This document shows, piece after piece, positions 13,333-29,700 of a stretch of DNA of 64,000 nt (within the stretch, counting starts at the first letter, position 1; each line of letters begins with the position of its first letter). The notes under the pieces are model-generated. The model did no database searches. It saw nothing but the letters and a program-made list of their open reading frames with translations, and was not told where the DNA came from. The DNA is from Streptomyces sp. NBC_00878. Lineage in GTDB: Bacteria; Actinomycetota; Actinomycetes; Streptomycetales; Streptomycetaceae. The stretch spans positions 3,720,001 to 3,784,000 of the forward strand of contig NZ_JAPEOK010000001.1 in assembly GCF_026341515.1 (NCBI RefSeq), read 5' to 3'. The position numbers and the translations under genes are program-made.

Positions 13333-13902
13333 TCACCTCTGTCCATGTGAGGCGGCCACCGCCAGGATCAGGGCGGCGCTGGGCGCGCACCGCACGCGGC
13401 CGTCGAGAGTCTCCCGCACGGCGTCGGCCAGGGACACATGGTGTACGCGCAGATCCGCTTCAGACGGTTCAAGGGCTGCCGCCCCGGAGTTCAGATGCTC
13501 GGCGCGCCACAAATGTACCCGCGCAGGAGTCGCGCCAGGCAGCGGGAAGAGGGTTCCCTGGCTGGTCCAAGCGCCGCCCCGATAGCCGGTCTCCTCGGCC
13601 AGCTCACGGCGAGCGGCGGCCTGCGGATCTTCGTCGTCCGGATCCACCGCTCCGCCGGGTAGTTGCCACAGGGGCCCCACGAGGTAGTGGTACTGCTCGA
13701 CGACGAGCAGCCGGCCGTCGACCAGGGCCGCGATGCGCACCTGATCCGGCGTTTCCACCCAGTCATAGAGTCCTTGCCCACCGTCGGGGCGCGTCACTAC
13801 GTCACGCTTCACTCCAAGGCGGCTGGTGGAGAGCAAGCATTCTTGGCTGTGACGTGTCCATGGGCCTCGCTGCTCCATGGCCGTACCGTACGGCATCGTC
13901 AT
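13333..13902 (-). CDS. Nudix hydrolase
   Basis: 189 residues. The Nudix box occupies about residues 84-106 with the core RRELAEETGY and the upstream LPGG; the preceding WVETPDQVRIAALVDGRLLV is typical of the ADP-ribose/NDP-sugar pyrophosphatase group. Nudix enzymes cleave nucleoside diphosphates linked to another group, using divalent metal. ATG 13902 has GAGG 5 nt upstream. It is the last gene in a leftward row with a two-TM protein, a lipoprotein and TIR-propeller genes. TIR domains can make ADP-ribose, so an ADP-ribose hydrolase nearby would be fitting, but that link is speculation. Confidence 0.85.
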   Translation of the reverse strand: MTMPYGTAMEQRGPWTRHSQECLLSTSRLGVKRDVVTRPDGGQGLYDWVETPDQVRIAALVDGRLLVVEQYHYLVGPLWQLPGGAVDPDDEDPQAAARRELAEETGYRGGAWTSQGTLFPLPGATPARVHLWRAEHLNSGAAALEPSEADLRVHHVSLADAVRETLDGRVRCAPSAALILAVAASHGQR

Positions 13903-13937: not shown

Positions 13938-14645
13938 CTACTCCCGGGCACTGGGCAGCAGAGGTGAGCCCTCTCCACCGGGCCGGGCAGCTGCCGTACC
14001 CAGCATGGCTTCTGCGTCCCGAACTCCGGCCAACCGCGCGAAGGCCAGCACGTACTCCAGAGCGTGCTCCTGTACTTCTCGCAGATCCGCACGGCATTCG
14101 GAGGCCTGCGGCCACTCCGACTCGGATCGACCGGGGTGAGCGTCCTCGAAGGCACGCAGACGTGGGTGCCATTTCGAGAGGAACGGACGAAGTTCCGTGT
14201 TGAGGAAGTTCACCGCCAGGGCCTCCACGGTGAGGCCGGCGCTCACGTGCGTCGAGGGGCGGCTGACCTTCAACGTCTCGCGAGTGGTCGCGAACAGCCC
14301 GTACAGCGACGACATGGTCTCCCTGAGCAGCCCTTCGTCATCCTGGAGCCGCTGCACGGACACTCGTGTCACCGACTCGATGAAGAGCTGCCAGGCGACC
14401 TGTCGCGCTTCGTTGTTCACGACGAAAGTCAGCTCGCTCAACTGCGGCACGCTGACGCGTACTTCGGTCAAGCGGGCCGCACGCCGGTAGACGTCGAGGC
14501 CGACGGCCACCAGTGCGCCGGCGAGTCCTCCCGTCACCGCGAACAGGTAGGTGCCTCCCGTACGAGTGATCGCATACACACACATGCCGACCGCAGCACC
14601 AGAAATCATGGAAAGGCCAATGCGCCACAAGCGCCCTGCCGTCAT
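13938..14645 (-). CDS. Two-TM membrane protein with cytoplasmic helical domain, function unknown
   Basis: 235 residues. Two hydrophobic helices (about 7-26 and 31-52) form a hairpin that places both ends inside. Residues 55-235 are charged and helical with no catalytic motif that I recognise. The start ATG 14645 follows GAGGCGGGGG. It lies 35 bp before the Nudix gene and 255 bp after the lipoprotein gene of the TIR locus. A role as a membrane partner or effector of the TIR proteins is possible but rests only on position. Confidence 0.65.
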   Translation of the reverse strand: MTAGRLWRIGLSMISGAAVGMCVYAITRTGGTYLFAVTGGLAGALVAVGLDVYRRAARLTEVRVSVPQLSELTFVVNNEARQVAWQLFIESVTRVSVQRLQDDEGLLRETMSSLYGLFATTRETLKVSRPSTHVSAGLTVEALAVNFLNTELRPFLSKWHPRLRAFEDAHPGRSESEWPQASECRADLREVQEHALEYVLAFARLAGVRDAEAMLGTAAARPGGEGSPLLPSARE

Positions 14646-14900
14646 CCCCCGCCTCGTCCCTCTCTCAGTTGTTTCACGCCCGCATCGCCCCACCCGGACG
14701 CATCCCAGGCCGCACGTGAGCACCGCAGCAACACCACCACTCACGCCCTAGGTCGTGTCCGCAAAGTCCCGCCTGCCCGGCGACGCCTGGCACGCCCTAG
14801 CGGCATCTTCCGTCATGCCACTCCGTATGGGCAGACCCCCGGCCCACCATCCCTCGAAGCCCTCCGAAGGCTTACCCGTGCCCTCCGAGTCGGTGGTGCC

Positions 14901-15566
14901 TCACGCACCTGTCTGTTGGATGAATCGGTTTCCGTCCCAGGTGAAGGAGCGACGCAGGCGTTGAGAGGGGCAACACCTAGGGTCGTCAGGGCCATAGGCT
15001 GCGAGATGAACGGTGACGGAGTTGCCGGAGAAGGAGAGATCACCAGCCGTCACCAACATCCGGCCGTTCACCGTCTCCTCGGCACTCAGGAGCACGGCGA
15101 TGCGCCTCGGTGCCTCCGGAGACGACGAGCCGTCGAAGACCTCCACCTGGTGGGGCCAGGTGGAAGCCCGGTGGGCGCAGTCGAACGTGACGAACGCATC
15201 GGGAACACCCGTGCCGCGGACGTCGGCGAACTGGGTGTCCAGAATCTCGATTCCTTCGTTGCCCGCGTCAAGACAGTCGATGTCGTCGATCACCCGGGTC
15301 CAGTCCGTGGCGGACAGCGGTGGTTCGGCGGGCGAGGCGGACGAAGCCGTGGGTGGTTCGGCGGTCGAAGTCGCCGTGTTCTCCAGGACGTCGTCAGGAA
15401 TCATCCCCGTCGGGGAAGCACTGTCCGTCGGGGAAGCGCTGTCCGTCGTGCCTGCGTCGCCCGGCTGATCGCTGCATCCGCCGAGGAGGAAGCCCGCCGA
15501 CAGCAGCACGGTGGCGAGCAGCCGGAATCGGCCGATACGCCGGTCGCTCGGTAAGAGGCGTGTCAA
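14901..15566 (-). CDS. LppP/LprE-like lipoprotein in operon with a TIR-propeller gene
   Basis: 221 residues. Lipobox FLLGGC with acylated Cys31, then a Ser/Thr/Pro/Ala spacer containing two TDSASP repeats, then a globular domain of about 130 residues. Its C-terminal VHLAAYGPDDPRCCPS resembles the actinobacterial LppP/LprE lipoprotein group. The start is a TTG at 15564-15566, supported by GGAGG 5 nt upstream; no ATG or GTG fits. Only 10 bp separate it from the stop of the upstream TIR-propeller gene, so co-transcription is very likely. It would sit on the outer face of the membrane, where the propeller may also lie. Confidence 0.8.
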   Translation of the reverse strand: MTRLLPSDRRIGRFRLLATVLLSAGFLLGGCSDQPGDAGTTDSASPTDSASPTGMIPDDVLENTATSTAEPPTASSASPAEPPLSATDWTRVIDDIDCLDAGNEGIEILDTQFADVRGTGVPDAFVTFDCAHRASTWPHQVEVFDGSSSPEAPRRIAVLLSAEETVNGRMLVTAGDLSFSGNSVTVHLAAYGPDDPRCCPSQRLRRSFTWDGNRFIQQTGA

Positions 15567-15576
15567 CGCGTCCTCC

Positions 15577-18500
15577 CTATCGGGGCTGGAGCGGAAGAAC
15601 GGGGTAAGTGCGGGCTTGGTCCGGTCTGGAGCAGATCCCGGCGACCGCGTCGGTCGTGCCGGTCAGTTCGGGTGTACTCCGGGTCCGGTGGAGAGCCTTG
15701 TCGACCAGACGGCAGATCTCCTGCTCTGTTCTGCCCTGCCAGAGCCGCACCACCCCGTCCTCACTGCCGCTGACGAGCCGAGTTCCGTCCGGGGACCAGC
15801 TCAGCGTGGTGACGCCGACGGAGTGCGCGTCCTCACGCCGCTGAAGCGACACGCCGCGCCGTGGGTCCCACACGCGGATGGTCCCCGCGCCATCGCCCGA
15901 GGCCAGGCGCGTGGAGTCCGGGGACCAAGCCAAGGACTCGACCCGGCTGTCCCCTGCATCGAGGAGGATCCGAGCAGCCTTGCCGGTGTCACCGTCCCAG
16001 AAGCGGATCGTGCCGTCCACGTCGGCTACCGCGATGAGTCTGCCGTCCGGAGACCATGCCATGTCCCGGGCCAGGTGCTCCGAAGCCTGGGGAGCCGGGC
16101 CCCACTGCTGCCCGCTGACCGCGTCCCACAGGTGCAGGGAACCGTCGGCCATGGCGGCGGCCAGACGCCGGCCGTCGCCAGACCAGGCCACAGACCGGAC
16201 CTCGGCCTTCAGCCCGTCCCCAGCTCCCGCCCCGCCGCCTTTGGAAGTGGACCGGGGCTGCTGACGCACCAACTTGCCGGTGGCGGCGTCCCAGACGCGG
16301 ACGCGACCTTGATCCGTCCCGGACGCGACTCGGGTGCCGTCCGGGGACCATGCCGCAGTGACGGACCATCCGCTGCCCCACCAGGGTTTGAGGGCATCCG
16401 TCCCGGTGGTCACGGACCAGGTCCGCAGACCGGTGCCACTCACTCTCAGCAGCCGACGGCCGCTCGGGTCCCACGCGATGTCATGGACTCTGTCGTCGGA
16501 AAAGCGCTGTCTCTGCGGGCTGCCGGGGACAGGTACCCCGGTTTCCGCGTCCCAGATCCAAACCGTGTCGTCGCTGCCGCCGCTTGCGATGCGGTGCCCA
16601 TCGGGCGACCAGGCCACGGCGAGTACGGAGTCGGTGGGGCCGCGCAGGCGCATACTGCGCTGCGTCGTTGTTCTGACCTCCCACAGGCGAAGAACGGTTG
16701 TCCGCGGCCCTTCGATGTCGTCCACGTCACCGCCTTTGATGAACACCCCGGCCAGGAACCGGCTGTCAGGAGACCAGACGAGCGAGCCGTCCAGGGAGTT
16801 CTTGCTGTCACGGGCGAGCGCGGACCCGACTGCCGTGCCGCTGGCCGGATCCCACAGGCGAATGGTTCCGTCGAAGTGGGCGACGGCCATCCACTCACCA
16901 TTGGGCGACCAACTGATCTCTCGGGCCCTGTTCTCCCATCCGTCAGCAGCGGTTGCCGACGCCTCCCCCGTGCGGGCATTCCACCAAGTGAGGCGGCCCT
17001 TCTCGTCTCCGGTGACGATACGGCGGCCGTCCGGGGACCAGGACAGGCTTTCGGCACCCTCCTTCCGCTGCCCCGACCAGATCAGCGAGCGCCGGTCCAC
17101 GTCCCAGATCCAGATGCGCGAAGTGCCGGCAGCGGCAAGCCGTCCGCCGTCAGGCGACCACGCCAGTTCGAAGATCTCGGCCGAAGTGCTGCCGGGCAAC
17201 GGCTTCCCGCGCCGTCGGCCGGTTCCGGCGTCCCAGAGCCTCACGCCGTCGTCGCTCGCCGCCGTGGCCAGCAGATCGCCGCCCGGGGCAAGCCTGCTGT
17301 TGCGCAGCGACACCCCGTCAGCCACCCCCGCGCCGAAGGTGAAAGGACCTGCGGTGACTCTGCCGGAGACGGCATCGCGTATGACATACGAATTGCCCGA
17401 CGTGCCACCGAGCATCTGCATCAAGAACCGGCCGTCCTGGCTCCACTGCAAGTCGTAAGGCGATCCGTCACCGCCGAACGAGTCCGTCGGCCGCCACAAT
17501 GGGACGGCGCCGATGCCGTCTCGCACGGACCAGCGTGCCATTCCGCTCTCGGCACTGGCCACCCACACGTTCGAGCCGTCGGAGGACCAGCGCAACTGGG
17601 TGCCCCAAGATGAGGTGACCGGCACCTCACCGACCAGGCGTGTGGTCCACGATTCCAGCCCCTGCACCGCCTCTCCGAAGGCGGTACGTGCCTCCGGAAG
17701 AGCCGGGCTGACCCGTAGTTCGGCGGCGATCGCGAAAGCCAGTGCCGCGTAGGGGTCGTCGGCGCTGCGGGACTGCGCGGCGTACTGACGCACTTCGGCC
17801 AGCGCGGCCTGTTCACGGGCGATGTCCCGTTCTTGGAAGGCCGTCACGGCGGCGAACCCGGCAATCGTGGCGAGCGCGGTCAGCATGGTGATCACCAGAC
17901 GCACATGGCGCCGGGTTCTCCGGTGCTGGCGAACGTCGTCGCCGATCAGCTTGTCCTTGTCGACACCGTGCAGGGGGGACGCCAAGCTGGCCAGTGCTGT
18001 GCGGAACTCCGGGTCACGCGGCGACAGTTCCGGCCGGGCGCGTGCCCAGCCGAGAACCAGCGCATGGGGTTCCTCTTCGAAGCGCCCCGACAGACACTTG
18101 GGTATCGCGGTGGTCCGCTCCCAGTCGAAGTCGCCCCGGAGCTCGTCCCAGACCATCCCGGGCGGCTTCCCCGTACCGTCCGCGAGAGGATCCGTAAGGA
18201 CGATGACCAGGTTGTCCACGCCCCGTTGGGTGCACCAGTACTCGACCTCTTGCACGACCCAGGGCGCCCGGGCCGAACGTTCGCAGGCCAGCAGGATGAA
18301 GTAGCGGGAAGTGCCCAGTGCCTGCTGGATGGAACCCCAGAGCCGTGAGCCGACAGCCAGGCTGCCTTCGTCCCGGAACACCCGCAGAGCCCGCAGGCGG
18401 TACCACGGCCTGGCGAAGGCGTGCAGTCCGTCCTGGAGAGCCCGCGCCAGGGCACGGTCGGCTTCCCTGCTGTAGGAGATGAACGCGTCGTACGCGAACT

Positions 18501-18582
18501 GCTCGTCCGCTTGCGCGGGACGGTCCGTTTTCGCGGGACGGTCCGTGCCGGACTTTCTCCGCCGCGTCAGAGCATGAGGCAT
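15577..18582 (-). CDS. TIR - transmembrane - WD40 protein (14 propeller repeats)
   Basis: About 1001 residues. Residues 30-170 form a TIR_2 domain: YDAFISYS, then FRDEG, and WVVQEVEYW with Glu112 at the position of the NADase glutamate. A basic stretch (HRRTRRHVR) precedes one membrane helix (229-249), then a helical segment rich in Ala. From about residue 330 to the end there are 14 WD40-type repeats, most with a xWSPDGxRxA signature, enough for two seven-bladed propellers. By the positive-inside rule the TIR faces the cytoplasm and the propellers the outside. NAD cleavage on sensing a signal is inferred from the TIR family. ATG 18582 is the best start near the TIR domain, but its ribosome-binding site is poor. 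Confidence 0.85.
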   Translation of the reverse strand: MPHALTRRRKSGTDRPAKTDRPAQADEQFAYDAFISYSREADRALARALQDGLHAFARPWYRLRALRVFRDEGSLAVGSRLWGSIQQALGTSRYFILLACERSARAPWVVQEVEYWCTQRGVDNLVIVLTDPLADGTGKPPGMVWDELRGDFDWERTTAIPKCLSGRFEEEPHALVLGWARARPELSPRDPEFRTALASLASPLHGVDKDKLIGDDVRQHRRTRRHVRLVITMLTALATIAGFAAVTAFQERDIAREQAALAEVRQYAAQSRSADDPYAALAFAIAAELRVSPALPEARTAFGEAVQGLESWTTRLVGEVPVTSSWGTQLRWSSDGSNVWVASAESGMARWSVRDGIGAVPLWRPTDSFGGDGSPYDLQWSQDGRFLMQMLGGTSGNSYVIRDAVSGRVTAGPFTFGAGVADGVSLRNSRLAPGGDLLATAASDDGVRLWDAGTGRRRGKPLPGSTSAEIFELAWSPDGGRLAAAGTSRIWIWDVDRRSLIWSGQRKEGAESLSWSPDGRRIVTGDEKGRLTWWNARTGEASATAADGWENRAREISWSPNGEWMAVAHFDGTIRLWDPASGTAVGSALARDSKNSLDGSLVWSPDSRFLAGVFIKGGDVDDIEGPRTTVLRLWEVRTTTQRSMRLRGPTDSVLAVAWSPDGHRIASGGSDDTVWIWDAETGVPVPGSPQRQRFSDDRVHDIAWDPSGRRLLRVSGTGLRTWSVTTGTDALKPWWGSGWSVTAAWSPDGTRVASGTDQGRVRVWDAATGKLVRQQPRSTSKGGGAGAGDGLKAEVRSVAWSGDGRRLAAAMADGSLHLWDAVSGQQWGPAPQASEHLARDMAWSPDGRLIAVADVDGTIRFWDGDTGKAARILLDAGDSRVESLAWSPDSTRLASGDGAGTIRVWDPRRGVSLQRREDAHSVGVTTLSWSPDGTRLVSGSEDGVVRLWQGRTEQEICRLVDKALHRTRSTPELTGTTDAVAGICSRPDQARTYPVLPLQPR

Positions 18583-18869
18583 CCTCAGCACAGCACCGCA
18601 CCCCCGTGAACTCCCGCAACGGCCGATCAGTAGGCCACGGCGGGATTCGGTCTGACAAGAATGCGCCCTGAGCAAGGGCGAGAAACAAGCCATGCGGCTC
18701 GCCGACCAGCCGGTGACGTTCGTACGTTCGTCGACACCGCCCGACACCGGGGCGACGCCACCCGACACAGGGCCGGCTGGCGCTCACCAACCGGCCCCGC
18801 CACTGAAATCGATCCAGAGGATCCAGCCGCCCGTCCGTCCCAACCACCGGCAGCCGCCGGATGCCGGAA

Positions 18870-21566
18870 TCACCCGGGACAGGGTGTGGGTACATCGACT
18901 CCGTCCAGGTAGAAGGCCAGCTGCGAGGGAGTCGGTTCCCCGTCGGCGAGCCGGCACAGATCCGCACGCCAGTCGGCGGGCGACACGTTCCACAAGCCGA
19001 TGTTTCCGTTCGGGCGGATGGTCGCGACCCGGGTTCCGTCCTCCACCAAGGCAAGGTGGGTGAGTTGTCCTCTGGGGACAGTGGCCATCGGCTCCTTCCA
19101 TGAGCCCACCAGCCGTCCCGTCGCGAGGTCCCAGAGCAGCAGTTGGTTGTGGCTGTCGGCTTCGTCCGCGCCTTGCCTGATGCCGTCGGTGTGCTGCACG
19201 ACGACCCCCTGCTCGTGGGCGATGACGTACTCGCTCGATCCGCTCACCGTATTGCCGCCGTCCATGGGCCGGGGACGATCAGGCTGGGACCGGCGGACGA
19301 TCTCGCCCTTGTCCTCGATGTCTCCCAGGACCAGGTATTCACCGTCGTCGCTCACTGCGACCTTGCTCAGCGAACGGTCTGTCCGCGTTCGCCACAGAGC
19401 CTTCGGGGCGAGCAGGCCGTCGCACTGCCACACGGTGACGGTCCAGTCGCTGACCTGCCCGTCGGTGTCGGTCTTGCTCGGGATGGCGACGGCGAAGTAA
19501 CGGCCGTTCACTGCTGTAGCCGGGTAACCGGAAGGGGTGGACAGCACGCGCCGCCCGCCGTCCCACACCGCCGAGACTGTCAACGGGCCGCTGTTGACCG
19601 AGCCCGCATTGCTGCGCTCGGTGACGATCCGGAATCCGCCGACGGCAGAGGTCAGCGCCCGGCCTTTTGCCGCGCTGTCGCCGCGGGCCGTGCGCTCGGC
19701 AAGAGTTTTCAGAGACTGTGTGTCCCGGACCCGTATGGTGTCGCCTTCGAGCAAGGCGAACCTTCGCCCGTCCGGGCTGAAAGACACCGCCTGTGCCGCC
19801 TGCCGATAGATCGCGTGCCGGACCCGACGCCGGACATCCCACAGCTCGACGGATCCGGATTGCCAGGTGAGCAGCCATCTGCCGTCGGGGCTCGCGGTCA
19901 GCGATGTGTACGGAAAGTCATTCACCGTATCCCGCGACCGGATACCCGCCGTGACATTGGCCAGCTGTGCTTCGTCCGGCAGTGACGACTGGACTACGTC
20001 GCCCACGTCGCTGGTGGACAGGACCACCGAGCCATCGGCGTTCATCGCGATGTCCGCGACCGAGTTGGAGTGCCGGGCGAGGGACTGTTCGGCGGAGAGG
20101 TCGGCGGCGAAGCTGACCACATCACCATCACTGTTGCCGGCGGTGATCCACTTCCCGTCCGCCGAAATCGCCGTCGCGATCCACGCCACACCAGGGTCCA
20201 ACCGCTTGGACGCAACCACCGCTCCGCTCCGCGTGTTCAGAACGCGCAGCTCGCCACCGTCACAGACAATCACGAGGCGTTCGGCCGCACGGCTCGCGTC
20301 CCACGGCCGCCAGGGCGCTTCGGGGGTGGCCGGTCCCCGGAACACGCACTCATCCGGAAGATCGGGAAGGAACGGGGGCTCCTCAGAAGCGGACGGCACG
20401 CTGGAGGACATGGGTCCGGTCTTGCGTAATTTTCCGGAGGGCACCTCCCATTCAGCGGCCCGGCCCGACGACGGATTACTGACCGTGAGAGTGCGGCCGG
20501 AGTCGTCGAAGTCGACGTACGGGGTCAGATTGCCCCCCGTCGTTCCGGTCCGCGAGGGCAGCAGGGCGATCTCCCGGTGCCTGACCGTGTCCCAGACGAT
20601 CACGTCGTTCACTTGCTGATGGACGAGCGCGGCCATCCGGCCGTCAGGGCTGAGAACGATGCTCTTGACCGTGATTCCGTTGGCCTTTTCCCGGCCCGGA
20701 AAGGATTGATATGCCCGCCGGACGAAGGAGGTGATCCGCCCGTTCGCGGCAATCAGCCGCATCAACTGGGCCTTGGCCTCCGGCGTCGAGTCCGCTTCGT
20801 ATGCGTAGAGCCCGAGCCGTATCGCCAACTGTGGGTCGTCGTCCGAGCGGTCCTGCGCCGCGGCGGCCAGCGCCCGCGACAGCGCCCGCCGGGCCTGGGC
20901 ACGGGCCTCGTCACGCTGCTGCCATGCCACGACGGCGGCGCTCGCCGCGAGGACGCTGAGCACGGTAAGGCCGACCAGCAGGGACCTGCGCACCCGCACC
21001 GCGCGCCGGTGCAGCCGGAGGTCCTCGCTGACCAGCTGTGCCTTGGAGCAACCGCGCAGTGGTGCCGACACCGTGGCCACGGCGTCCTGGAACACCGGGT
21101 TACGCATCCGCAGTTCGAGCATCGGTATCGCCCGCATGTCCACCCAGAGCGGTTCCTCCGCGAACCATCGCTCCGCCTCGGGCCGCGGTAACGCGGTCGT
21201 CACCGTCCAGTCGAAGTCACCAACGGTGGGATCCCAGCGCAGTTCGCCTCCCGCGAGCACCAGTAGGACCTTCGTCGCCGGCCTGTTCTCCCTCCAGAGA
21301 GCGATCTCCTCCCGCACCCAGCGCGACTGGGCGGACGCCGGGGACGCGACGAGTACGAAGTACTCACTGGAAAGGAGCGCTTCCTTGATGGAACCCTTGA
21401 GACTCGCGCTCGCGGAAAGATCATGGGCGTCACGGAAGACGTCCACAGCACGCAACCGGTGCCAGGGCTTGGCGAGCCGGTGGAGGCCGTTGTGAAGCGC
21501 ATGCGCCAGTGGTTCGTTCTCCCGTTTGCTGTACGAGAGGAACGCGTCGAACCGAATCTCTTCCAC
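18870..21566 (-). CDS. TIR - transmembrane - beta-propeller protein (second copy)
   Basis: 898 residues with the same plan as its neighbour. The TIR domain starts almost at the N-terminus (RFDAFLSYS) and has WVREEIALW with Glu86/87 in the catalytic region. A basic segment (LHRRAVRVRRS) precedes a membrane helix at about 195-215. The C-terminal 650 residues contain degenerate propeller repeats (LSPDGRMAALVHQQ, FSPDGRRFALLEG, VSDDGEYLVLGD). The GTG start at 21566 is used; GGA lies 6 nt upstream. It is divergent from the third TIR gene across about 200 bp and 287 bp upstream of the 14-repeat gene. Sequence has diverged strongly from the other two, so this is not a recent duplication. Confidence 0.85.
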   Translation of the reverse strand: MEEIRFDAFLSYSKRENEPLAHALHNGLHRLAKPWHRLRAVDVFRDAHDLSASASLKGSIKEALLSSEYFVLVASPASAQSRWVREEIALWRENRPATKVLLVLAGGELRWDPTVGDFDWTVTTALPRPEAERWFAEEPLWVDMRAIPMLELRMRNPVFQDAVATVSAPLRGCSKAQLVSEDLRLHRRAVRVRRSLLVGLTVLSVLAASAAVVAWQQRDEARAQARRALSRALAAAAQDRSDDDPQLAIRLGLYAYEADSTPEAKAQLMRLIAANGRITSFVRRAYQSFPGREKANGITVKSIVLSPDGRMAALVHQQVNDVIVWDTVRHREIALLPSRTGTTGGNLTPYVDFDDSGRTLTVSNPSSGRAAEWEVPSGKLRKTGPMSSSVPSASEEPPFLPDLPDECVFRGPATPEAPWRPWDASRAAERLVIVCDGGELRVLNTRSGAVVASKRLDPGVAWIATAISADGKWITAGNSDGDVVSFAADLSAEQSLARHSNSVADIAMNADGSVVLSTSDVGDVVQSSLPDEAQLANVTAGIRSRDTVNDFPYTSLTASPDGRWLLTWQSGSVELWDVRRRVRHAIYRQAAQAVSFSPDGRRFALLEGDTIRVRDTQSLKTLAERTARGDSAAKGRALTSAVGGFRIVTERSNAGSVNSGPLTVSAVWDGGRRVLSTPSGYPATAVNGRYFAVAIPSKTDTDGQVSDWTVTVWQCDGLLAPKALWRTRTDRSLSKVAVSDDGEYLVLGDIEDKGEIVRRSQPDRPRPMDGGNTVSGSSEYVIAHEQGVVVQHTDGIRQGADEADSHNQLLLWDLATGRLVGSWKEPMATVPRGQLTHLALVEDGTRVATIRPNGNIGLWNVSPADWRADLCRLADGEPTPSQLAFYLDGVDVPTPCPG

Positions 21567-21773
21567 CGAACATCCATTCCAGTCGGCTCCGCTGAAGTCA
21601 ACCTCGCAAGTTTATAAGGGAGTTCACGACCAAGAGGGCGGGGAACGGCAATTCGGAGCCGATGACACGAAACCGGTGACAGATGGAAGGGAGCAGCGCT
21701 ACCTTCTTCGGCATCAGTGCGCATCCGGTACATGGCACGGATACCGGAGGTCACGGCGGGGGTGATGAGACTG

Positions 21774-24650
21774 ATGACGGATTCAGCGCCTCTCCACTCA
21801 ACCGAATTCAGTCACGAATTCACCTACGACGCGTTCATTTCCTACAGCACCACCGCCGACAAGGATCTGGCCGCGAAACTCCAGCACCACATCGAACGCA
21901 TCGGCCTGCCTGCATACAGGCGGCGTCGGCTACGGGTCTTCCGCGACTTCACGAATCTGTCGGCGGACGCTGATGCCGGCAGGGTGATCCAGCACGCACT
22001 CGCCCGGTCACGGCGGTTCATCCTGCTCGTCTCTCCTGAGGCCAGGCGGTCGAAATGGGTGGGGAGAGAGGTGGAGTGGTGGCGCGACAACCGCTCGGCG
22101 GACGACATGTTCCTCGTACTGACCGCCGGCACGATCCGCTGGGACGACACCCTCCGGGACTGGAACTGGACGGAAGGCACACCGCTTCCTGAGGCACTGC
22201 GCGGAATGCATCCGGTGGAACCGCTGTGGGTCGACCTGTCGGCACGGACGACGGGCGGACCACGGCGCACCCGCAAGGAACGCGAGCAAGCCAGGATGGA
22301 CTTGCTGAACGCGTGCGCCACGATCGCCGCTCCGCTGCGGTCGATGGACAAGGATGCCCTGTACGGCGCCCACATTGTGCAGTTGCGGCGGGCCAGGCAA
22401 CGGCTCATCGGCGGGACGGCCCTGCTGTCGGTGCTCCTCGTCCTCGCGGTGATCGCCACGTTCGTCGCCCGTGACCGGACCAGAGCCGCGGAGGAGCAGG
22501 CCCGAATCGCATCCGCCCGCTCCCTGGCCGCGGCTTCCGTCGCAGGCCACGACGATCACCTGGATCTCGCCCAGTTGCTCGCGGTGGAGGCATACCGGCT
22601 GGACCGCAGCCCCGAGTCGCGGTCGGCACTCCTCGAGACGGTCACTGCCCAGCCGCACCTTGTCCGCTACCTCCAGGCCGGAGCCACAGTGACCCAGGTG
22701 CTCGGCTCGGAGAACGGAGAGAAGGTCGTGGCCGGCACGGCCAAGGGCGAGGTACTCAGCTGGACGGGACCGCAACGGCGCAAACGTACTCTGGGCCGAC
22801 TCGACAGAGGCATCACCGACCTCGCACTGAGTGCGGACGGCACCATCGCGGCAGCCTGTGACGACACCCGGGCGATGGTCTGGGCAGGCGGGCGAGCCGG
22901 CCGTCGGATCGCGGTGCCCACCGGGGAGAAGGCGGATCTCGTCGCGGTGTCACCGTCCGGTCGGTGGGTGGCGGTGCACAGTACGTCGGCCGACTTGGAC
23001 ATGGGAAGCCTGACTCTGCTGGATTTACAGAGCGGGCGGGTGACCCACACGGCGTCAGCGGGATCGTGGTCCGTTCTGGCCTTGCCTTCTGAGGAAGAGG
23101 CGATTCTCTTCGACTCTGCCTACGGGACGTGGGAGCGGCGAACGTTCCCGGCACTGAGTCGGCTGGGGGGAGACTCAATTGAGTTCGGAGTTCACAATTC
23201 CGCGTCGGCCCTGTCCTCCGACGGCTCAGTATTCACCTACAGCAACGGCGACACATGGCTTCCCGTATGGGAGTCCCAGGAGACTGCGCAGGAACTCAAC
23301 AAGGCACCGCTGGAAGCCGACAGCGCCGGGCCGAGGCCGACAGCTGTGGCCTTGTCCTCCAACGGGAGCTACGCCGCAACGGCGGCCAACGGCGTCATCC
23401 ACGTGTCACAGGTCGGGCCGACAGGCGCCGACCGTCCGCCCATGACCGAACTGCGGGGAAACGCGGAGGTCAATCAGGACGCCCTGGCGTTCATCGATGA
23501 CGGAGACCGCCTGGTCTCCGCCACAGGATCACTGGTCACCGAATGGGATCTGAAGAGACTGAGCCGTATCGGGGTACGAGCGAACGCCCAGGTGCCCGTG
23601 ACCTGTGGTGCCTGCGCCGAGAGTTGGCTCACGATCAGCCCGGACGGCAGAAATGCCGCCATCACCGGCGGATTGGCAAATGAGGTGTGGCTGCACCCCT
23701 TGACCTCACCCACTACGACGGGGAGGGCAGGTGAGGCCGGTTTGTCCAAGGCATACACCGAAGGGCCTGCCCTCTGGGACCACGACGCCGAGAAGCTCTA
23801 TTTCATGAGTTTCGAGAAGGGCAGCCTGCAGATCTACGATCGGACCACTGGCACCCTCAGCCACTCGCTCTGGGATACGGGAGCGGCCGATACCGCCCTG
23901 CCGCTGTCCGTCTCGGCGGATTCGCGGAAACTTCTCGCAGTGATCGGCAACGCCATTGTCGTCCGCGACATACCGGGCAGGCGCACGATCAGCAGAGTCG
24001 AACTGGGCACTGAGGCCGCTTCGGGGGAGCTCTCCGCGGCTCGACAAGTAGCAGTGAATTCCTCCTGGACAAAGGCCGCGGTCGTCGCCAAGAACCGTGT
24101 ACTGCTGATCGATCTCGTCACCGGAAAGGCCTCCCGCCTCCGCGGGACATCCTCCGCCGTGGGCGTCATGTACGGCGGAGAACTGCTCGCCATCGCCAAG
24201 AAGGACGGCAGTACTGTTCTGTACGGCCCACGGGGCAGCCGGCCGGAGAGGACGATTCCAAGAGATCCCACGACGGCGTGGCGACCGTTTGCGCTCAACA
24301 GCCAGGGCACTCTGCTCGCCCAGCAACGTTTGGACGGTTCCGTTCTGCTGACGGACCCTCAGGACGGTCGGCGGCTGGGCGCTCTGGCGCTGTCTCCTCC
24401 TTACTCCGGGTCCAAGACTTCCCTGCGTTTCACCGACGACGGGAAGAAGCTGGTCGTCGCCCTGGAGGACCAAGGGACGGACGAGGCACCGGGAATCATC
24501 CAGCAGTGGGACACCACGCCGGATGCCTGGATCGCGGAGGCCTGCCGAACGGCTGGCAGGGATCTGTCGGCAGCCGAATGGGAACGTTACGTTGGCACAC
24601 CGGCCCCCGACGATCTGCGCTGCGAACGCAGCTGGACCGAGGCCGACTGA
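21774..24650 (+). CDS. TIR - transmembrane - beta-propeller protein (third copy, divergent)
   Basis: About 958 residues from the ATG at 21774; ATGs at 21732 and 21765 are alternatives and no ribosome-binding site is decisive. TIR domain at residues 16-150 (YDAFISYS, FRDFTNLS, WVGREVEWW with Glu99), then LRRARQR and a membrane helix at 211-232, an Ala/Arg-rich helical connector (ARIASARSLAAASVAG), and degenerate propeller repeats to the end (ALSADGTIAAACDD, TISPDGRNAAITGG, FTDDGKKLVVAL). The end contains WIAEACRTAGRDLSAAEWERY, a signature common at the end of bacterial WD40 signalling proteins and also seen, weaker, at the end of the second TIR protein. Confidence 0.85.
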   Translation: MTDSAPLHSTEFSHEFTYDAFISYSTTADKDLAAKLQHHIERIGLPAYRRRRLRVFRDFTNLSADADAGRVIQHALARSRRFILLVSPEARRSKWVGREVEWWRDNRSADDMFLVLTAGTIRWDDTLRDWNWTEGTPLPEALRGMHPVEPLWVDLSARTTGGPRRTRKEREQARMDLLNACATIAAPLRSMDKDALYGAHIVQLRRARQRLIGGTALLSVLLVLAVIATFVARDRTRAAEEQARIASARSLAAASVAGHDDHLDLAQLLAVEAYRLDRSPESRSALLETVTAQPHLVRYLQAGATVTQVLGSENGEKVVAGTAKGEVLSWTGPQRRKRTLGRLDRGITDLALSADGTIAAACDDTRAMVWAGGRAGRRIAVPTGEKADLVAVSPSGRWVAVHSTSADLDMGSLTLLDLQSGRVTHTASAGSWSVLALPSEEEAILFDSAYGTWERRTFPALSRLGGDSIEFGVHNSASALSSDGSVFTYSNGDTWLPVWESQETAQELNKAPLEADSAGPRPTAVALSSNGSYAATAANGVIHVSQVGPTGADRPPMTELRGNAEVNQDALAFIDDGDRLVSATGSLVTEWDLKRLSRIGVRANAQVPVTCGACAESWLTISPDGRNAAITGGLANEVWLHPLTSPTTTGRAGEAGLSKAYTEGPALWDHDAEKLYFMSFEKGSLQIYDRTTGTLSHSLWDTGAADTALPLSVSADSRKLLAVIGNAIVVRDIPGRRTISRVELGTEAASGELSAARQVAVNSSWTKAAVVAKNRVLLIDLVTGKASRLRGTSSAVGVMYGGELLAIAKKDGSTVLYGPRGSRPERTIPRDPTTAWRPFALNSQGTLLAQQRLDGSVLLTDPQDGRRLGALALSPPYSGSKTSLRFTDDGKKLVVALEDQGTDEAPGIIQQWDTTPDAWIAEACRTAGRDLSAAEWERYVGTPAPDDLRCERSWTEAD

Positions 24651-24758: not shown

Positions 24759-25202
24759 CTACACCCACCTGGGGTGATGATTATCGCCACGAGGCATCCG
24801 ATCTGTCAGCGCCGCCTCGCCCGCTGATGTGCCGCTGATGTGCCGCTGATGTGCCGCTGATGTGCCGCTGATGTGCCGCTGCAACAGCTTGACTGCCAAG
24901 TCATGGCTGTAGTGAAGGGCAAGGCCCATAGGCGTTTGCCCATCTGGCCCCGGGAGTTGCGGGTCAGCGCCGAAGGACAGGAGCACGGCGGTGGTACGTA
25001 CAGTCAGCGGGCTGCCGCTCTGCAAGGCGCCATCGCCTTCCGTGTCAATGGCGTGGACCAGGAGCGTCATGTTGTCGCATACCTCATCAGGGTCGACTCC
25101 GTTGGCCAGCAACTGGGCCAAGGTCTCCGCGTCCTCGTTCTCCACCGCTTGATGGGCCGGTGTCCAGGTGTTCTCCACGGCGGTATTCAACCGTTTCGGC
25201 AC
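24759..25202 (-). CDS. Ankyrin-repeat protein with an 11-bp repeat in its 3' end
   Basis: About 147 residues. Ankyrin-type repeats are seen in TPAHQAVENEDAETLAQLL and in AVLLSFGADPQLPGPDGQTP. Ankyrins mediate protein contacts. The start is uncertain: GTG 25202, TTG 25190 or GTG 25181 all come before the first repeat, and none has a strong ribosome-binding site. The last 40 codons run through five copies of an 11-bp repeat. Because 11 is not a multiple of three, loss or gain of a copy would change the C-terminal tail. The gene converges with the third TIR gene. Confidence 0.65.
   Translation of the reverse strand: MPKRLNTAVENTWTPAHQAVENEDAETLAQLLANGVDPDEVCDNMTLLVHAIDTEGDGALQSGSPLTVRTTAVLLSFGADPQLPGPDGQTPMGLALHYSHDLAVKLLQRHISGTSAAHQRHISGTSAGEAALTDRMPRGDNHHPRWV
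24821..24880. repeat. 11-bp tandem repeat, five copies, inside the ankyrin gene
   Basis: Unit GCCGCTGATGT repeated at 24831-24841, 24842-24852, 24853-24863 and 24864-24874, with a 10-bp copy before (24821-24830) and a partial copy after. Read on the coding strand it cycles through all three frames every 33 bp (QRHISGTSAAH). The two other frames after the array stop within about 5 and 13 codons, against about 20 in the present one. Confidence 0.9.
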
Positions 25203-25395
25203 CGCGGGCGGCCTGCAAGAAGTGGCCAATGTCGGAGCGGTAGAGGCAGCTGCCCATGGGGGTGAGTGATATCGCTGAGTGTGTCGGCCGATCTCTGGTA
25301 GCCACCGAGCCGGCCGTACGTGGCGCGTGCGGTGCCATCGAACGTGTTGCCGTACTCGTGTAGCGCTGGACCTCGGCAGCCTTCGTGTCGTCCAG

Positions 25396-25740
25396 CGGGA
25401 GCGGGACAGCGATGCCACCGTGAAGAGTGGGTCCACCGCCCTGTCCTCCGCTACCGGCCGGGTCGGGCACGTACTCGCCGAGAATCCGCAGGGCGCGGAC
25501 CTGAACAACAAGTCCGCGGCCGCGATCGCCGATACCCGATACCCGGTACTGTCGGCCCTGACGCAGGCGAGGGGCCTGCTCAAGAAGACGGATACGGCGG
25601 AGGCCGACACCTTCCGCAGCACCGTCCTGGTCGCCTTCGAAACGGCCACCCGGGCCCGCAAGGGCGAGACCACCCCCGCCCTGACCGACATGACCCGCAA
25701 GATCACCGCGGCCTCGACGCCGCCGCCAGTGCCTGATCAG
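25396..25740 (+). pseudogene. Coding-like fragment of an unrecognised protein
   Basis: About 115 codons with strong third-position G/C and a protein-like, helical composition (LNNKSAAAIADTRYPVLSAL, ARGLLKKTDTAEADTF, ALTDMTRKITAAS). No start codon with a ribosome-binding site precedes it, the frame upstream lacks coding character, and beyond 25740 the bias is lost although the frame stays open to 25950. I do not recognise the family. It is probably the internal or C-terminal part of a broken gene. Confidence 0.45.
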
Positions 25741-26242: not shown

Positions 26243-26680
26243 CTATTCATGAAAGTCACCCATAGTCACGTCCCATCGAAATTCATACCAAAAAGAACCC
26301 TCGACATATGCGGACGGGTCGACTCGACGAATCAATTCTTCCACACGAAGCGCGGCATTCTCCCATTCATCGAGATCCGAATCCTCGGAATAGAACGGCG
26401 CCATCGCGGTTAGATCGCGAACGCACTCAATGAACTGAGAGAGTGAAGTATTGACAATCGCGACATCGTTCGGACCCATCCCCGAGAGGACGCGCCCGGA
26501 ATCTTCACCGATGAACACGGAAGTCGCGCGACCGATGATTCCGAATCGAATGAGATGTCCACCTTCGGCCGACGCAACTCTTTCCGCCACATCAAGTGAA
26601 CGGAAGGCGAAGAACCGGTCAGGCACGACAAGCTCGAAGTCGCCCGAGGGGACAGGCACGCTGACCAGGTTGAATTCCAC
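26243..26680 (-). CDS. SUKH-4-like immunity protein for the RHS deaminase toxin
   Basis: 145 residues. Features fit the SUKH-4 immunity group: early LVSVPVPSGDFELVVPDRF, a mid-protein pattern GEDSGRVLSGMG, then IVNTSLSQFIECVRDL, and an acidic C-terminal half. SUKH proteins neutralise toxins delivered between bacteria. The gene directly follows the toxin gene, the normal place for its immunity partner. GTG 26680 is chosen because GGGAG lies 5 nt upstream; ATGs at 26719 and 26746 are in frame but lie in or beside a hairpin without a ribosome-binding site. Codons are less G/C-rich than in the core genes, in line with horizontal transfer. Confidence 0.65.
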   Translation of the reverse strand: MEFNLVSVPVPSGDFELVVPDRFFAFRSLDVAERVASAEGGHLIRFGIIGRATSVFIGEDSGRVLSGMGPNDVAIVNTSLSQFIECVRDLTAMAPFYSEDSDLDEWENAALRVEELIRRVDPSAYVEGSFWYEFRWDVTMGDFHE

Positions 26681-26717
26681 GATCGCTCCCACTGCATCCG
26701 CTTCAGCCTGAAATGGC

Positions 26718-26751
26718 ATGGTATGGCTCGACCGAAGTCGAGCCATACCAT
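26718..26751 (-). terminator. Perfect 15-bp hairpin with UUCG loop between toxin and immunity genes
   Basis: Left arm 26718-26732 and right arm 26737-26751 are perfectly complementary; the transcript loop is UUCG closed by C-G, an exceptionally stable tetraloop. It begins 26 nt after the RHS stop. It probably terminates or attenuates the toxin transcript before the immunity gene, whose chosen start lies 38 nt further on. Confidence 0.65.
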
Positions 26752-26776: not shown

Positions 26777-29700
26777 TCACTTGCCGTTGAACAGATTCTT
26801 TACCGCGGCGGTAAGGTCCCGATTCGTTTTAGCCCTGCCTGCATCCCCAATTCCATTCCAGGGGAATGACCAGCTGACATTCTTGACCCCGGCGGTCCTG
26901 AGTTGCGATGCACAGTTATGTCCACTATCGCATGGGGCTCTCTCCGAATATGCAGCAACGATCTTCCTTTTTCCGGCCCGTTCAAGCAGATATTCCTCGG
27001 AATGCATTGTGCTGTCGGAGTGGGCGACGAGTGTAGTTCCGTCATCTAGTAGAGCTGACGCATAATTCCCATTCTTCTTATTGTCCAGGATTCGCTGCAG
27101 TTGCACCGCGCTGCTGAGATGGCCTTCCCCGTAGGGAATCTGACCCACCAGCTCTATCGCCTCGTCGATCTTCTTGGCGGCCTTTTTGGCGTCCTCGCCT
27201 CCGTCCAGAAGCTTCGACAATTTCTTGAGCTTCCCAGCTGGCAAGAAGCCGGCTATCAGCCATCCGCAGCCGTCCAGCTCACCTCTACCGCAACCCTCGA
27301 GATCCTCGGTGTCGGGCGCTAGAACGGTTTTCCATGCCTCATAGTTCTCATGGAGTGAGCACTTGACATCCCAGAAGCCGCAATCGGACTTCCAGAGATC
27401 GTTCCAGCCGCACTTGACGTCCCAGAAACCGCAGCCGCCGCTAGGCGCGGGAGCCGGGTACTCGACGCTGCCGCCCCCTCCGCCATTGCTTCCCGATGAG
27501 GATGTTCCGGATCCGGGCCGGTTGGTGTTCGGAGAGCCAGGGTTGGTGACACCGTCGCCGTTCGAGTCATCCTTGGGGCACGGGGTGTCCGTTCCTGGCC
27601 CGCACGCGATCTTCTGGCCGGTGGGGTCCGAATAGGTGGCTGGGTTGTTATTGGCGTAGGCGTAACCGTTGAGGGATTGCTGCTGGTCGAGGGTGAGCAG
27701 CGGGTCGACGCTGATGAACTGACCGACGGCTGGGTCGTATTCGCGGGCACCGATGTGGGTGAGGCCGGTGGTGGTGTCGTTGGTCTTGCCGAGGAAGCCC
27801 TTGTCATCGGGCCATGCTGCGCCGGCCGGTTTGCCTCGCTCGGCGCCGAAGGCGGTCATGTAGCGCTTGCTGACGGTCTGGGAGCTGTCGGCGCTGATGG
27901 TCAGGCTGGAGGTGCCGTGGTGGTCGCCGGTCAGGTAACTGAGTTTGGATGTGCCGGATTCGTTGGTGCGGACTGCGACCGTCATGCCGCCTGCGGCGTA
28001 GTAGCGCTGGGCCCACAGGGTGCCGTCTGCCTTGAGGTGCAGTTCGGTAGTGCCCGCGTACAGGATCCGTTCGCCGTCCTGGGTGTTGCGGATCAGCAGT
28101 TCACCGGTGGTGTCGTAAAGGTAGTCGGTGGCTTTGCCGTTCTCGGTGAGCTTGGTGAGCTTGCCCTCTTCGGACCAGGCCAGGTCCTGGGTGTTGCCGG
28201 CTGTCCCGGGACGCTTGAGAGTGTCGCCTGTGGCGTTGTACTGGTAACTGCGGTCCGGACTGGTGCAGTCGGCCTTGGTGCTGGTGCCGGTCAGCGCGTG
28301 GGGCTGGGCGCTCTTGTAGCAATAGGTGGTTTTGGTGTCTCCGCCGCTCTGGTGCTTGGTTTCGCTGGTGCGCTGGCCCGCCGAGTTGTAGGTGTACGAG
28401 GTCCAGTACGGGGCCGGGCCTGACAGGCTGGAGGCGTTACGGCCATCAGTGCACTTCTGTGAGGCGGGGGTCCAGGCCTCGGTGAGGCGGCGGTGGCCGT
28501 CGTAGGCGAAGCACTGGGTTTCGGCGCTGGTTCCCGCGACCGTGGTGGGGTCCGCGATGGAAGTGACATTGCCGGCTTCGTCGTAGGTGTAGTTGAGATC
28601 CTGCAGGACGTATGGAGCGGTCTGACTGTCCGTGTGACTGCGGGTAAGCCGCCCGGTGCCCTGTTCGTAAGTATTGGTGACGTAGGTCTTCTTATGGTCC
28701 TCGGTGTTGGCGGTGCCAAGGGTGAGTTGCAGAGGCTGACCGAGGGCGGTGTAGGAGGTGTCCAGGAGGTAGCCGGTGGCGCCGCCGATCGAGGTGACCT
28801 GGCCCAGTCCGTTGTAACCAAAGTCGATGATCTCGGAGGGTAGGCCGCCGAGGGCTGGTTCCTTGCTGTTCTGCAGGGTGCCGTCGAGGTTGTAGTAGTT
28901 GGTGTACCCCAGCACGGCTGGGGCTCCGGCCTTGACGAACGGGTCGTCGGCGGGCAGTTCCAGTTTGGAGGCCACGGGTCGGGAAAGGTTGTCGTAGTCG
29001 GTGACTGTGTCGGTGTAGGCCTGCCCGGTCTTGCCGCCGACATAGCGGGTGGAGGAGGTCGGCTTGCCCTTCAGGGCTGTGTCGTAGGTCTGGGCGGTGA
29101 GTTGGTTGGCGTCCGTCTTGGAACCGGCCCAGGTGCCGGTGAGGCGGCCGACCTCGTCGTATTCGCTCACGATGGACTTGCCGCGTGCATCAGTGGCCTT
29201 GATGACCTGGTCCAGCACGTTGTAGTCAGCTCGCGTGGTGCCCTTGTCCGGGTCTGAGGCGGACCTCTGCAGGCCGAACAGATCGTAGGTGTAGGACCAC
29301 TCGGCGCCGTCTGGGCCGGTTATGGACTGCGGCTTGTCGTCCAGGGTGAAGCCGAACTTGGTGGAGGTGTAGGAAGTACCAACGCCGTCGCCGAACTCAG
29401 GGTCGGCGGGGGTCGTGCCCGCGTATTCGCGGGTCTCGATCGTGCGGCCACGGGCGTCGGTAACAGTGCGGGTGGCCGCGCCGCCCTCCAGGGCGGTGGT
29501 GGCCGTGGAGTTGCCGGTATAGCTGGTGGAGGTAGTCCACTTTTTGACGCCGAACACGAGCAGGGTGCTGCTCACTGTGCGGCCAGCGCCGTCGTAGGCG
29601 GTTGCTGTCTGGGTGGGCGCCTGGCCGTATTCGGCGCGGGTATAGGTGCCATTGGGCGCGGCTTCGGGGTCGAAGATGTCGGCGTATGTCTCGTAGGCGA

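Follow-up and report, generated by a model that had tools for sequence, protein, structure and literature searches.

In animal Toll-like and IL-1 receptors, a sensor outside the cell is joined through one membrane helix to a TIR domain inside (excerpts of PMC7075850). The Thoeris plan combines a TIR enzyme with a separate effector (abstract of PMC11204291), and phage genomes contain TIR-SLATT neighborhoods in which SLATT is a predicted membrane effector regulated by ADP-ribose derivatives (excerpts of PMC9503650). In the conflict systems treated in excerpts of PMC7159879, tandem propellers act as sensors, effector-associated domains occur both alone and fused, and the WD40 propellers of Apaf-1 sense in the cytosol. 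Here we describe three receptor-like genes, A, B, and C, from Streptomyces sp. NBC_00878 (genome size 11.1 Mb), clustered within a 64-kb window (the whole stretch of DNA analyzed, 64,000 nucleotides, to which all coordinates refer). Our best reading, from sequence and predicted structure, is that they encode surface receptors whose TIR domain would make NAD-derived signals. The receptor genes and the features that define them are as follows (aa, amino acids).

15577-18582, minus strand: receptor A, 1001 aa from its likely start; the frame is open to 18768
18870-21566, minus strand: receptor B, 898 aa
21717-24650, plus strand: receptor C, open frame of 977 aa; 958 aa in database entry P0121
17842-17898, minus strand: membrane helix of A, a hydrophobic segment in the sequence
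20925-20981, minus strand: membrane helix of B, a hydrophobic segment in the sequence
22413-22469, plus strand: membrane helix of C, a hydrophobic segment in the sequence
21567-21773, no strand: intergenic gap between the divergent genes B and C

Each of the three proteins has a TIR domain, a single membrane helix, a helical stalk, and WD40-like propellers, as read from the open reading frames (ORFs), Pfam, and the sequence, and each carries a pair of cysteines at its C terminus. Pfam TIR_2 (cut-off 28 bits) scores 36.7 for B, 34.9 for C, and, in a whole-genome search, 38.7 for A, for which the best 25 of 57 Pfam matches are all propeller models. The propeller of A is canonical (WD40 212 bits, nine repeats); the repeats of B and C are degenerate, and C has a double propeller. 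The AlphaFold models of C and B (mean predicted local distance difference test, pLDDT, of 87.3 and 83.8) have the strand and helix order of a TIR domain, followed by a long helix that holds the membrane segment, two short helices, a region of mainly strands, and a helical tail. The propeller part has 55 strands in C (∼14 blades) and 46 in B, where some stretches fall below pLDDT 50. Foldseek matches of the two whole models include double seven-bladed propellers and Apaf-1; such whole-model matches are dominated by propellers and are uninformative on the TIR part.

A first-pass annotation, made from the letters of the window alone, had proposed this trio of ∼900-1000-residue TIR-membrane-propeller proteins, two in tandem and one divergent, and had held that a missing TIR fold in structure predictions would speak against it. 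The ORFs, the TIR_2 scores, and the B and C models, in which the TIR fold is present, bear out the trio, as the coordinates and strands do the arrangement: B and A follow one another on the minus strand, and C diverges from them, ∼150-210 bp from the start of B. No match to a sigma-70-like promoter was found between B and C, in a scan that says little for such a genome. A profile of the TIR and membrane parts matches only A, B, and C in their own genome at E<=1e-10. Three further TIR_2 genes of this genome (G000:C1:4401005, 3897981, and 4789066, in loci L001-L003) are unmatched by the receptor profile.

The charge and cysteine statistics of the family are strong, and from them we predict that the TIR domains lie inside the cell and the propellers outside. 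Among 249 non-redundant full-length homologs, lysine and arginine in 15-residue flanks set at the helix edge are more numerous on the TIR side of the membrane helix in 192, equal in 41, and fewer in 16 (sign test, p = 2e-39). The number of cysteines after the membrane helix is odd in 39 of the 249, as compared to 106 of the 249 on the TIR side; with the last 75 residues excluded, it is odd after the helix in 40 of the 249, against an expectation of 47% for random numbers. As controls, odd numbers occur in 148 of 328 cytosolic proteins from the same loci, in 15 of 58 signal-bearing or lipobox proteins, and in 9 of 51 receptor ectodomains. The last 75 residues contain exactly two cysteines in all 51 receptors checked in the locus set described below; in 295 full-length homologs, this tail has two cysteines in 253 and none in 23. 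Receptor A has two cysteines after its membrane helix, which fits the predicted topology.

The first-pass annotation had read the trio as a candidate membrane NAD-depleting sensor system, possibly for defense or self-recognition. The membrane-sensor architecture stands; the annotation left sidedness unstated and missed the likely outside position of the propellers. In the simplest version of that idea, the propeller would be in the cytosol and bind phage proteins. Its required parts (a TIR domain with the glutamate, a membrane helix, and a propeller) are present, and Apaf-1, a cytosolic WD40 sensor, is among the fold matches; yet the charges and cysteines around the single helix are distributed as in proteins whose C-terminal part is exported, and the most tightly coupled partner is an exported lipoprotein, and we regard this version as highly improbable.

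The predicted surface topology is like that of the Toll-like and IL-1 receptors, with the sensor out, a single helix, and the TIR domain in. The ectodomains, however, are WD40-type propellers rather than leucine-rich repeat or immunoglobulin domains, the chain order is reversed (TIR N-terminal, propellers C-terminal), and a glutamate is conserved at the NADase position. The likeness is one of convergent layout and not of family membership. STAND or Apaf-1-type WD40 sensors are alike in their tandem propellers and in an adaptor-like domain found alone and fused, but here the propeller is predicted to be outside; moreover, Pfam matches no P-loop NTPase family in B or C, nor among the best 25 of 57 matches for A. 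Actinobacterial kinase-, SARP-, protease-, and nSTAND1-membrane-WD40 proteins share the membrane helix, propeller, and tail cysteine pair and differ in the cytosolic domain, here TIR. Helix, propeller, and tail pair lie behind nSTAND, kinase, SARP, or protease parts in 18 of 19 proteins checked, the domains being precomputed annotations from the homolog list, some of whose accession names we take to denote nSTAND, SARP, kinase, or protease domains. TIR is one further signaling domain on a shared receptor chassis. A literature search on the TIR-WD40 pairing found no paper, although an earlier mention in work of the Burroughs group is possible; a membrane TIR-propeller receptor is not described in the excerpted text of PMC7159879, PMC13174449, PMC7075850, PMC5587647, PMC10907252, PMC8195603, PMC3501461, or PMC9503650.

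The enzymatic part of our reading concerns a glutamate that aligns with the catalytic position of TIR NADases, its codons placed by alignment.

about 18247-18249, minus strand: putative catalytic glutamate codon of A
about 21306-21308, minus strand: putative catalytic glutamate codon of B
about 22068-22070, plus strand: putative catalytic glutamate codon of C

The acidic residue noted at this position in the first-pass annotation is found by alignment as the glutamate of a WVxxE motif in A, B, and C. In the model of C, it lies within helix 94-106, after strand 79-86. Three homolog lists (the best 120 of 302, 95 of 95, and the best 120 of 433) together hold 331 different proteins, of which 32 were dropped from the glutamate check, 31 having no box-1 pattern and one no membrane helix. 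The residue is E in all 299 checkable homologs, and the two preceding positions vary. Because the homologs were gathered by similarity to glutamate-bearing proteins, this conservation indicates constraint and is not proof of activity. The receptor profile matches solved TIR domains weakly in sequence (best E 0.0014; SARM1 E 0.007-0.009), and the family is large and actinobacterial. By fold and by the helix-C glutamate, A, B, and C qualify as members of the TIR NADase family, and NAD+ cleavage is predicted. The general plan is like that of Thoeris (the TIR protein ThsB with ThsA or a Macro-domain effector), though ThsB models match only weakly; to our knowledge, no Thoeris TIR protein is a propeller-bearing membrane receptor. 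No strong match to a known PADLOC system was found: the TIR parts reach 29-32 bits at best, to the candidate models PDC-S66 and SAVED_TIR, and the propeller of A has one match, 54 bits, to a HEAT/ARM model.

The gene directly downstream of A encodes a lipoprotein.

14901-15566, minus strand: LppP/LprE-like lipoprotein with lipobox cysteine (Pfam PF14041 26.2 bits, cut-off 25)

We analyzed 51 loci, the window included, and the counts below cover 46 of these with 56 called receptor genes; outside the count are L053-L055 (short repeats of regions that longer loci already cover), L064, and L082 (the last two with receptor ORFs uncalled). One of the 56 genes is a 69-aa fragment and was dropped from the receptor tree, which has 55 rows. 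Three LppP/LprE-like lipoprotein families adjoin receptors, in 18 of the 46 loci. In the tree, the receptor clades lipA, lipB, and lipC each have full support, and the clade's own lipoprotein stands beside the receptor in 2 of 2, 10 of 10, and 8 of 8 cases, respectively (20 of 20 together). The lipA clade consists of A and its relative in L035, where the lipoprotein is in the same place. In the own genome, the lipoprotein profile has the window gene as its only strong match (E 2e-56; next, 1.5e-6), the lipobox of that gene is supported by the family alignment, and none of the lipoprotein families occurs in 190 kb of control loci. The lipoprotein is likely the cognate partner of A, and an exported lipoprotein tied to a receptor is what would be expected if the propeller is outside. 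At the level of sequence, the architecture, the glutamate, and the partner genes with their co-diversification are established.

A second partner gene follows the lipoprotein gene.

13938-14645, minus strand: helical protein with two membrane helices and a predicted cytosolic helical domain; the frame is open to 14744

Members of this helical family lie within 1.5 kb of 18 of the 56 receptor genes; most copies have membrane helices, which are absent in 4 of 15 aligned. Within the host genus, 11 of 15 genomes with receptors have the family, as compared to 18 of 231 others (Fisher p = 9e-9). Among 14 loci where the helical domain is away from receptors, in seven it also makes up the C-terminal end of an ORF of 644-758 aa with a TIR domain and a P-loop motif; three such ORFs that were scanned have Pfam TIR_2 at 48-61 bits and no NTPase family named by Pfam at E<=0.01. 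At one further receptor-free locus, an FxsC-like TIR gene (63 bits, cut-off 130) adjoins the helical gene. Since it recurs near receptors and is fused in TIR/P-loop ORFs, we regard the helical protein, by sequence association, as a protein that repeatedly accompanies TIR domains, perhaps as an adaptor. Among the members scanned, Pfam scores all stay below cut-off and none matches a PADLOC model, and no solved structure matches the helical protein up to E 1; its match to the envelope-stress protein PspM is weak (19.2 bits, cut-off 80), and a relationship to SLATT was rejected (hhalign probability 0.8%). At the seven loci with TIR and P-loop ORFs (L091-L094 and L096-L098), a stand-alone helical gene adjoins six of the seven ORFs, and these loci possibly represent a separate, undescribed NLR-like TIR system; at L095 and L104, a second copy of the helical domain is in ORFs of only 278-279 aa, and the TIR/P-loop gene there may be broken. 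A patch of ∼50 bp at 14746-14799 matches two Streptomyces plasmids at 91-96% and is intergenic in the one inspected; we take it to resemble an insertion-element end. Its position separates the lipoprotein gene from the helical gene, which leaves a single operon uncertain.

Other neighbors would fit a nucleotide-like product. In the window, one of these is a possibly associated hydrolase gene.

13333-13902, minus strand: NUDIX hydrolase (Pfam NUDIX 52.2 bits)

A NUDIX gene is near receptors in 4 of the 46 loci, the window included. SLATT-family proteins are encoded within 1.5 kb of 8 of the 56 receptor genes, six of them divergently transcribed. Two that were scanned with Pfam join SLATT_3 (151-154 bits) to SLATT_1 (129 bits), and SLATT_3 also matches at three SLATT places beside receptors, one of which had already been scanned; anywhere in the genome, SLATT_3 is found in 38 of 121 genomes of the genus, nearly always as a single copy. 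These neighbors recall the TIR-SLATT pairs, but here the TIR domain is part of a membrane receptor, and the own genome is without SLATT_3. A lipoprotein, helical, or SLATT partner is present in 33 of the 46 loci. The first-pass annotation had the three receptors of the locus right and missed these partners; its cluster interval, 13938-24650, holds the receptors but starts with the helical-protein and lipoprotein genes, which it did not mention.

With these neighbors in view, a different role for the TIR domain can be weighed, that of a non-enzymatic scaffold signaling by assembly with further proteins that carry TIR or helical domains. Scaffolding is the main mode of animal Toll receptors, and the helical domain, alone and fused to TIR proteins, looks adaptor-like; against a mere scaffold speak the glutamate, invariant across the 299 homologs while the two positions before it vary, and the SLATT and NUDIX neighbors, which fit a nucleotide-like product. 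We consider this alternative improbable and retain the reading in which the TIR domain would act as an enzyme.

The receptor family is accessory and recurs in small clusters. A TIR-to-stalk profile at E<=1e-20 finds it in at least 15 of 246 and at least 26 of 392 genomes of the host genus and in at least 12 of 393 genomes of the class; these are lower bounds, from the 6-10 best candidates scored per genome, and the two genus draws overlap. Two or more copies occur in 12 genus genomes, within 6 kb of each other in eight of these, and six of the eight clusters unite receptors of different clades of the tree, like A, B, and C. Between orthologs, the TIR domains are 69-81% identical and the propellers 41-66%. 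This faster change is as would be seen for a recognition part under change, and the divergence of the propellers beyond that of the TIR domains lends support to the earlier proposal of paralogous sensors with differing recognition propellers. The right flank is core (ychF onward; names read from sequence), and to the left of ychF the relatives differ: in 10 of them, the window genes left of ychF were not found within 20 kb of ychF (10.8 kb in L114). A dated insertion site at ychF was considered and rejected, as the left side varies in most of the 10 relatives, and only a variable junction is claimed. Plasmids have no near copy of the cluster, apart from the 50-bp patch, and the phage collection has no relative of B. 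Wide conservation in core genomic positions, which the first-pass annotation had named as speaking against it, is not what this patchy family displays; its suggested link to defense islands, in turn, is not supported so far.

For that question, we assembled 118 genes at most two places from a receptor, excluding receptors, partner families, genes of at least 1500 aa, and seven near-duplicate loci, and scanned 117 after removing one residual lipoprotein. At E<=1e-15, at most 4 of the 117 match PADLOC models: two match C3a156 (a generic oxidoreductase), one mad3, and one IetA. The 117 are a mix of enzymes and regulators (from the first 25 of 176 Pfam families), with an ADP-ribosylglycohydrolase in two, and ThsA has no match among them at the same threshold or among seven other scanned proteins (the helical protein, lipoprotein, and NUDIX hydrolase of the window, one SLATT protein, and three others). 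TIR_2 is found in three of the 117 neighbors and WD40 in two. The same receptors could instead serve development, envelope homeostasis, or kin recognition, the TIR product being a local signal and not a suicide trigger. Neighborhoods that are not defense islands, lipoprotein partners suggestive of an envelope cue, and the weak PspM likeness of the helical protein are all in keeping with such a role; patchy presence, at least 26 of 392 genomes, resembles conflict genes rather than a developmental core, and the fast-evolving ectodomains, the variable chromosomal junction, and the SLATT partners in relatives also look conflict-like. We judge such a role rather unlikely; a conflict function is likely, and a role in defense plausible.

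We favor the surface-receptor mechanism. A, B, and C would be single-pass receptors of Toll-receptor-like topology, with the TIR domain cytosolic and the stalk and propellers outside, where the lipoprotein from the adjoining gene (for A) would act with the propeller as a co-sensor. A cue at the ectodomain, such as envelope damage, an adsorbing phage, or a competitor's protein, would cluster the receptors; the clustered TIR domains would assemble and, through the conserved glutamate, cleave NAD+ or make an ADP-ribose signal. The membrane-anchored helical protein would recruit or relay for the TIR domain on the cytosolic side, and in relatives a SLATT two-helix protein would open the membrane. 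Topology, clustering, catalysis, cue, and role in conflict are what we infer here, and the mechanism as a whole, from topology and co-sensor through clustering, NAD+ cleavage, and helical relay to a conflict cue, is in our estimate moderately probable. A broader formulation, in which a lipoprotein-paired exported propeller senses envelope events and signals to an NAD+-cleaving TIR domain, on a shared chassis with diversified clusters, and in which the helical domain also serves TIR/P-loop (NLR-like) proteins, is offered tentatively, as something a little short of probable.

Several observations weigh against this mechanism. Net-charge asymmetry is weaker than that of lysine and arginine (158 for, 50 opposite, 41 equal with 15-residue flanks), and with 20-residue flanks it is nearly gone (121 versus 104, 74 equal, in 299 homologs); B and C each have five cysteines after the membrane helix, an odd count. 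The lipoproteins are missing from 28 of the 46 receptor loci, and in the window a lipoprotein of these families adjoins A only, and not B or C. In G104, one of the 11 receptor-bearing genomes with the helical family, the helical gene is not near the receptor, and some genomes that lack these receptors still have the helical domain. SLATT_3 has no match in the own genome. Thirteen of the 46 loci have no lipoprotein, helical, or SLATT partner, and these include all eight receptor loci from other genera, the partners being found only in host-genus loci. Given the few PADLOC matches, a defense island around the receptors is not claimed.

The remainder of the window near the cluster includes the following, and no tRNA gene was found in the window.

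8802-11735, plus strand: 977-aa ORF; by its sequence, a kinase-like start precedes a membrane helix and then a part resembling solute-binding proteins
24759-25706, minus strand: ORF with ankyrin repeats; an array of 11-bp tandem repeats lies at about 24821-24881
26243-26746, minus strand: SUKH-4 immunity-like gene (44.7 bits), beside the RHS-repeat gene
26777-33208, minus strand: RHS-repeat protein ending in a deaminase-like domain (PF14440, 39.3 bits); the gene neighbors the receptor cluster

Under the broader formulation, these proteins would give bacteria an equivalent of the Toll receptors with an enzymatic output, and their layout would show an independent origin of the Toll-receptor plan. 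The bacterial TIR defense proteins known to us work intracellularly, once entry has occurred; a TIR enzyme coupled to a sensor at the surface would allow a response before or during attack. The predicted layout, together with the matching lipoprotein genes beside many relatives, suggests an undescribed bacterial way of sensing surface events. The locus offers testable pairs, a receptor with its own lipoprotein and a TIR domain with its helical partner, and it marks out a helical domain, so far without annotation, that accompanies TIR domains repeatedly in several TIR architectures.

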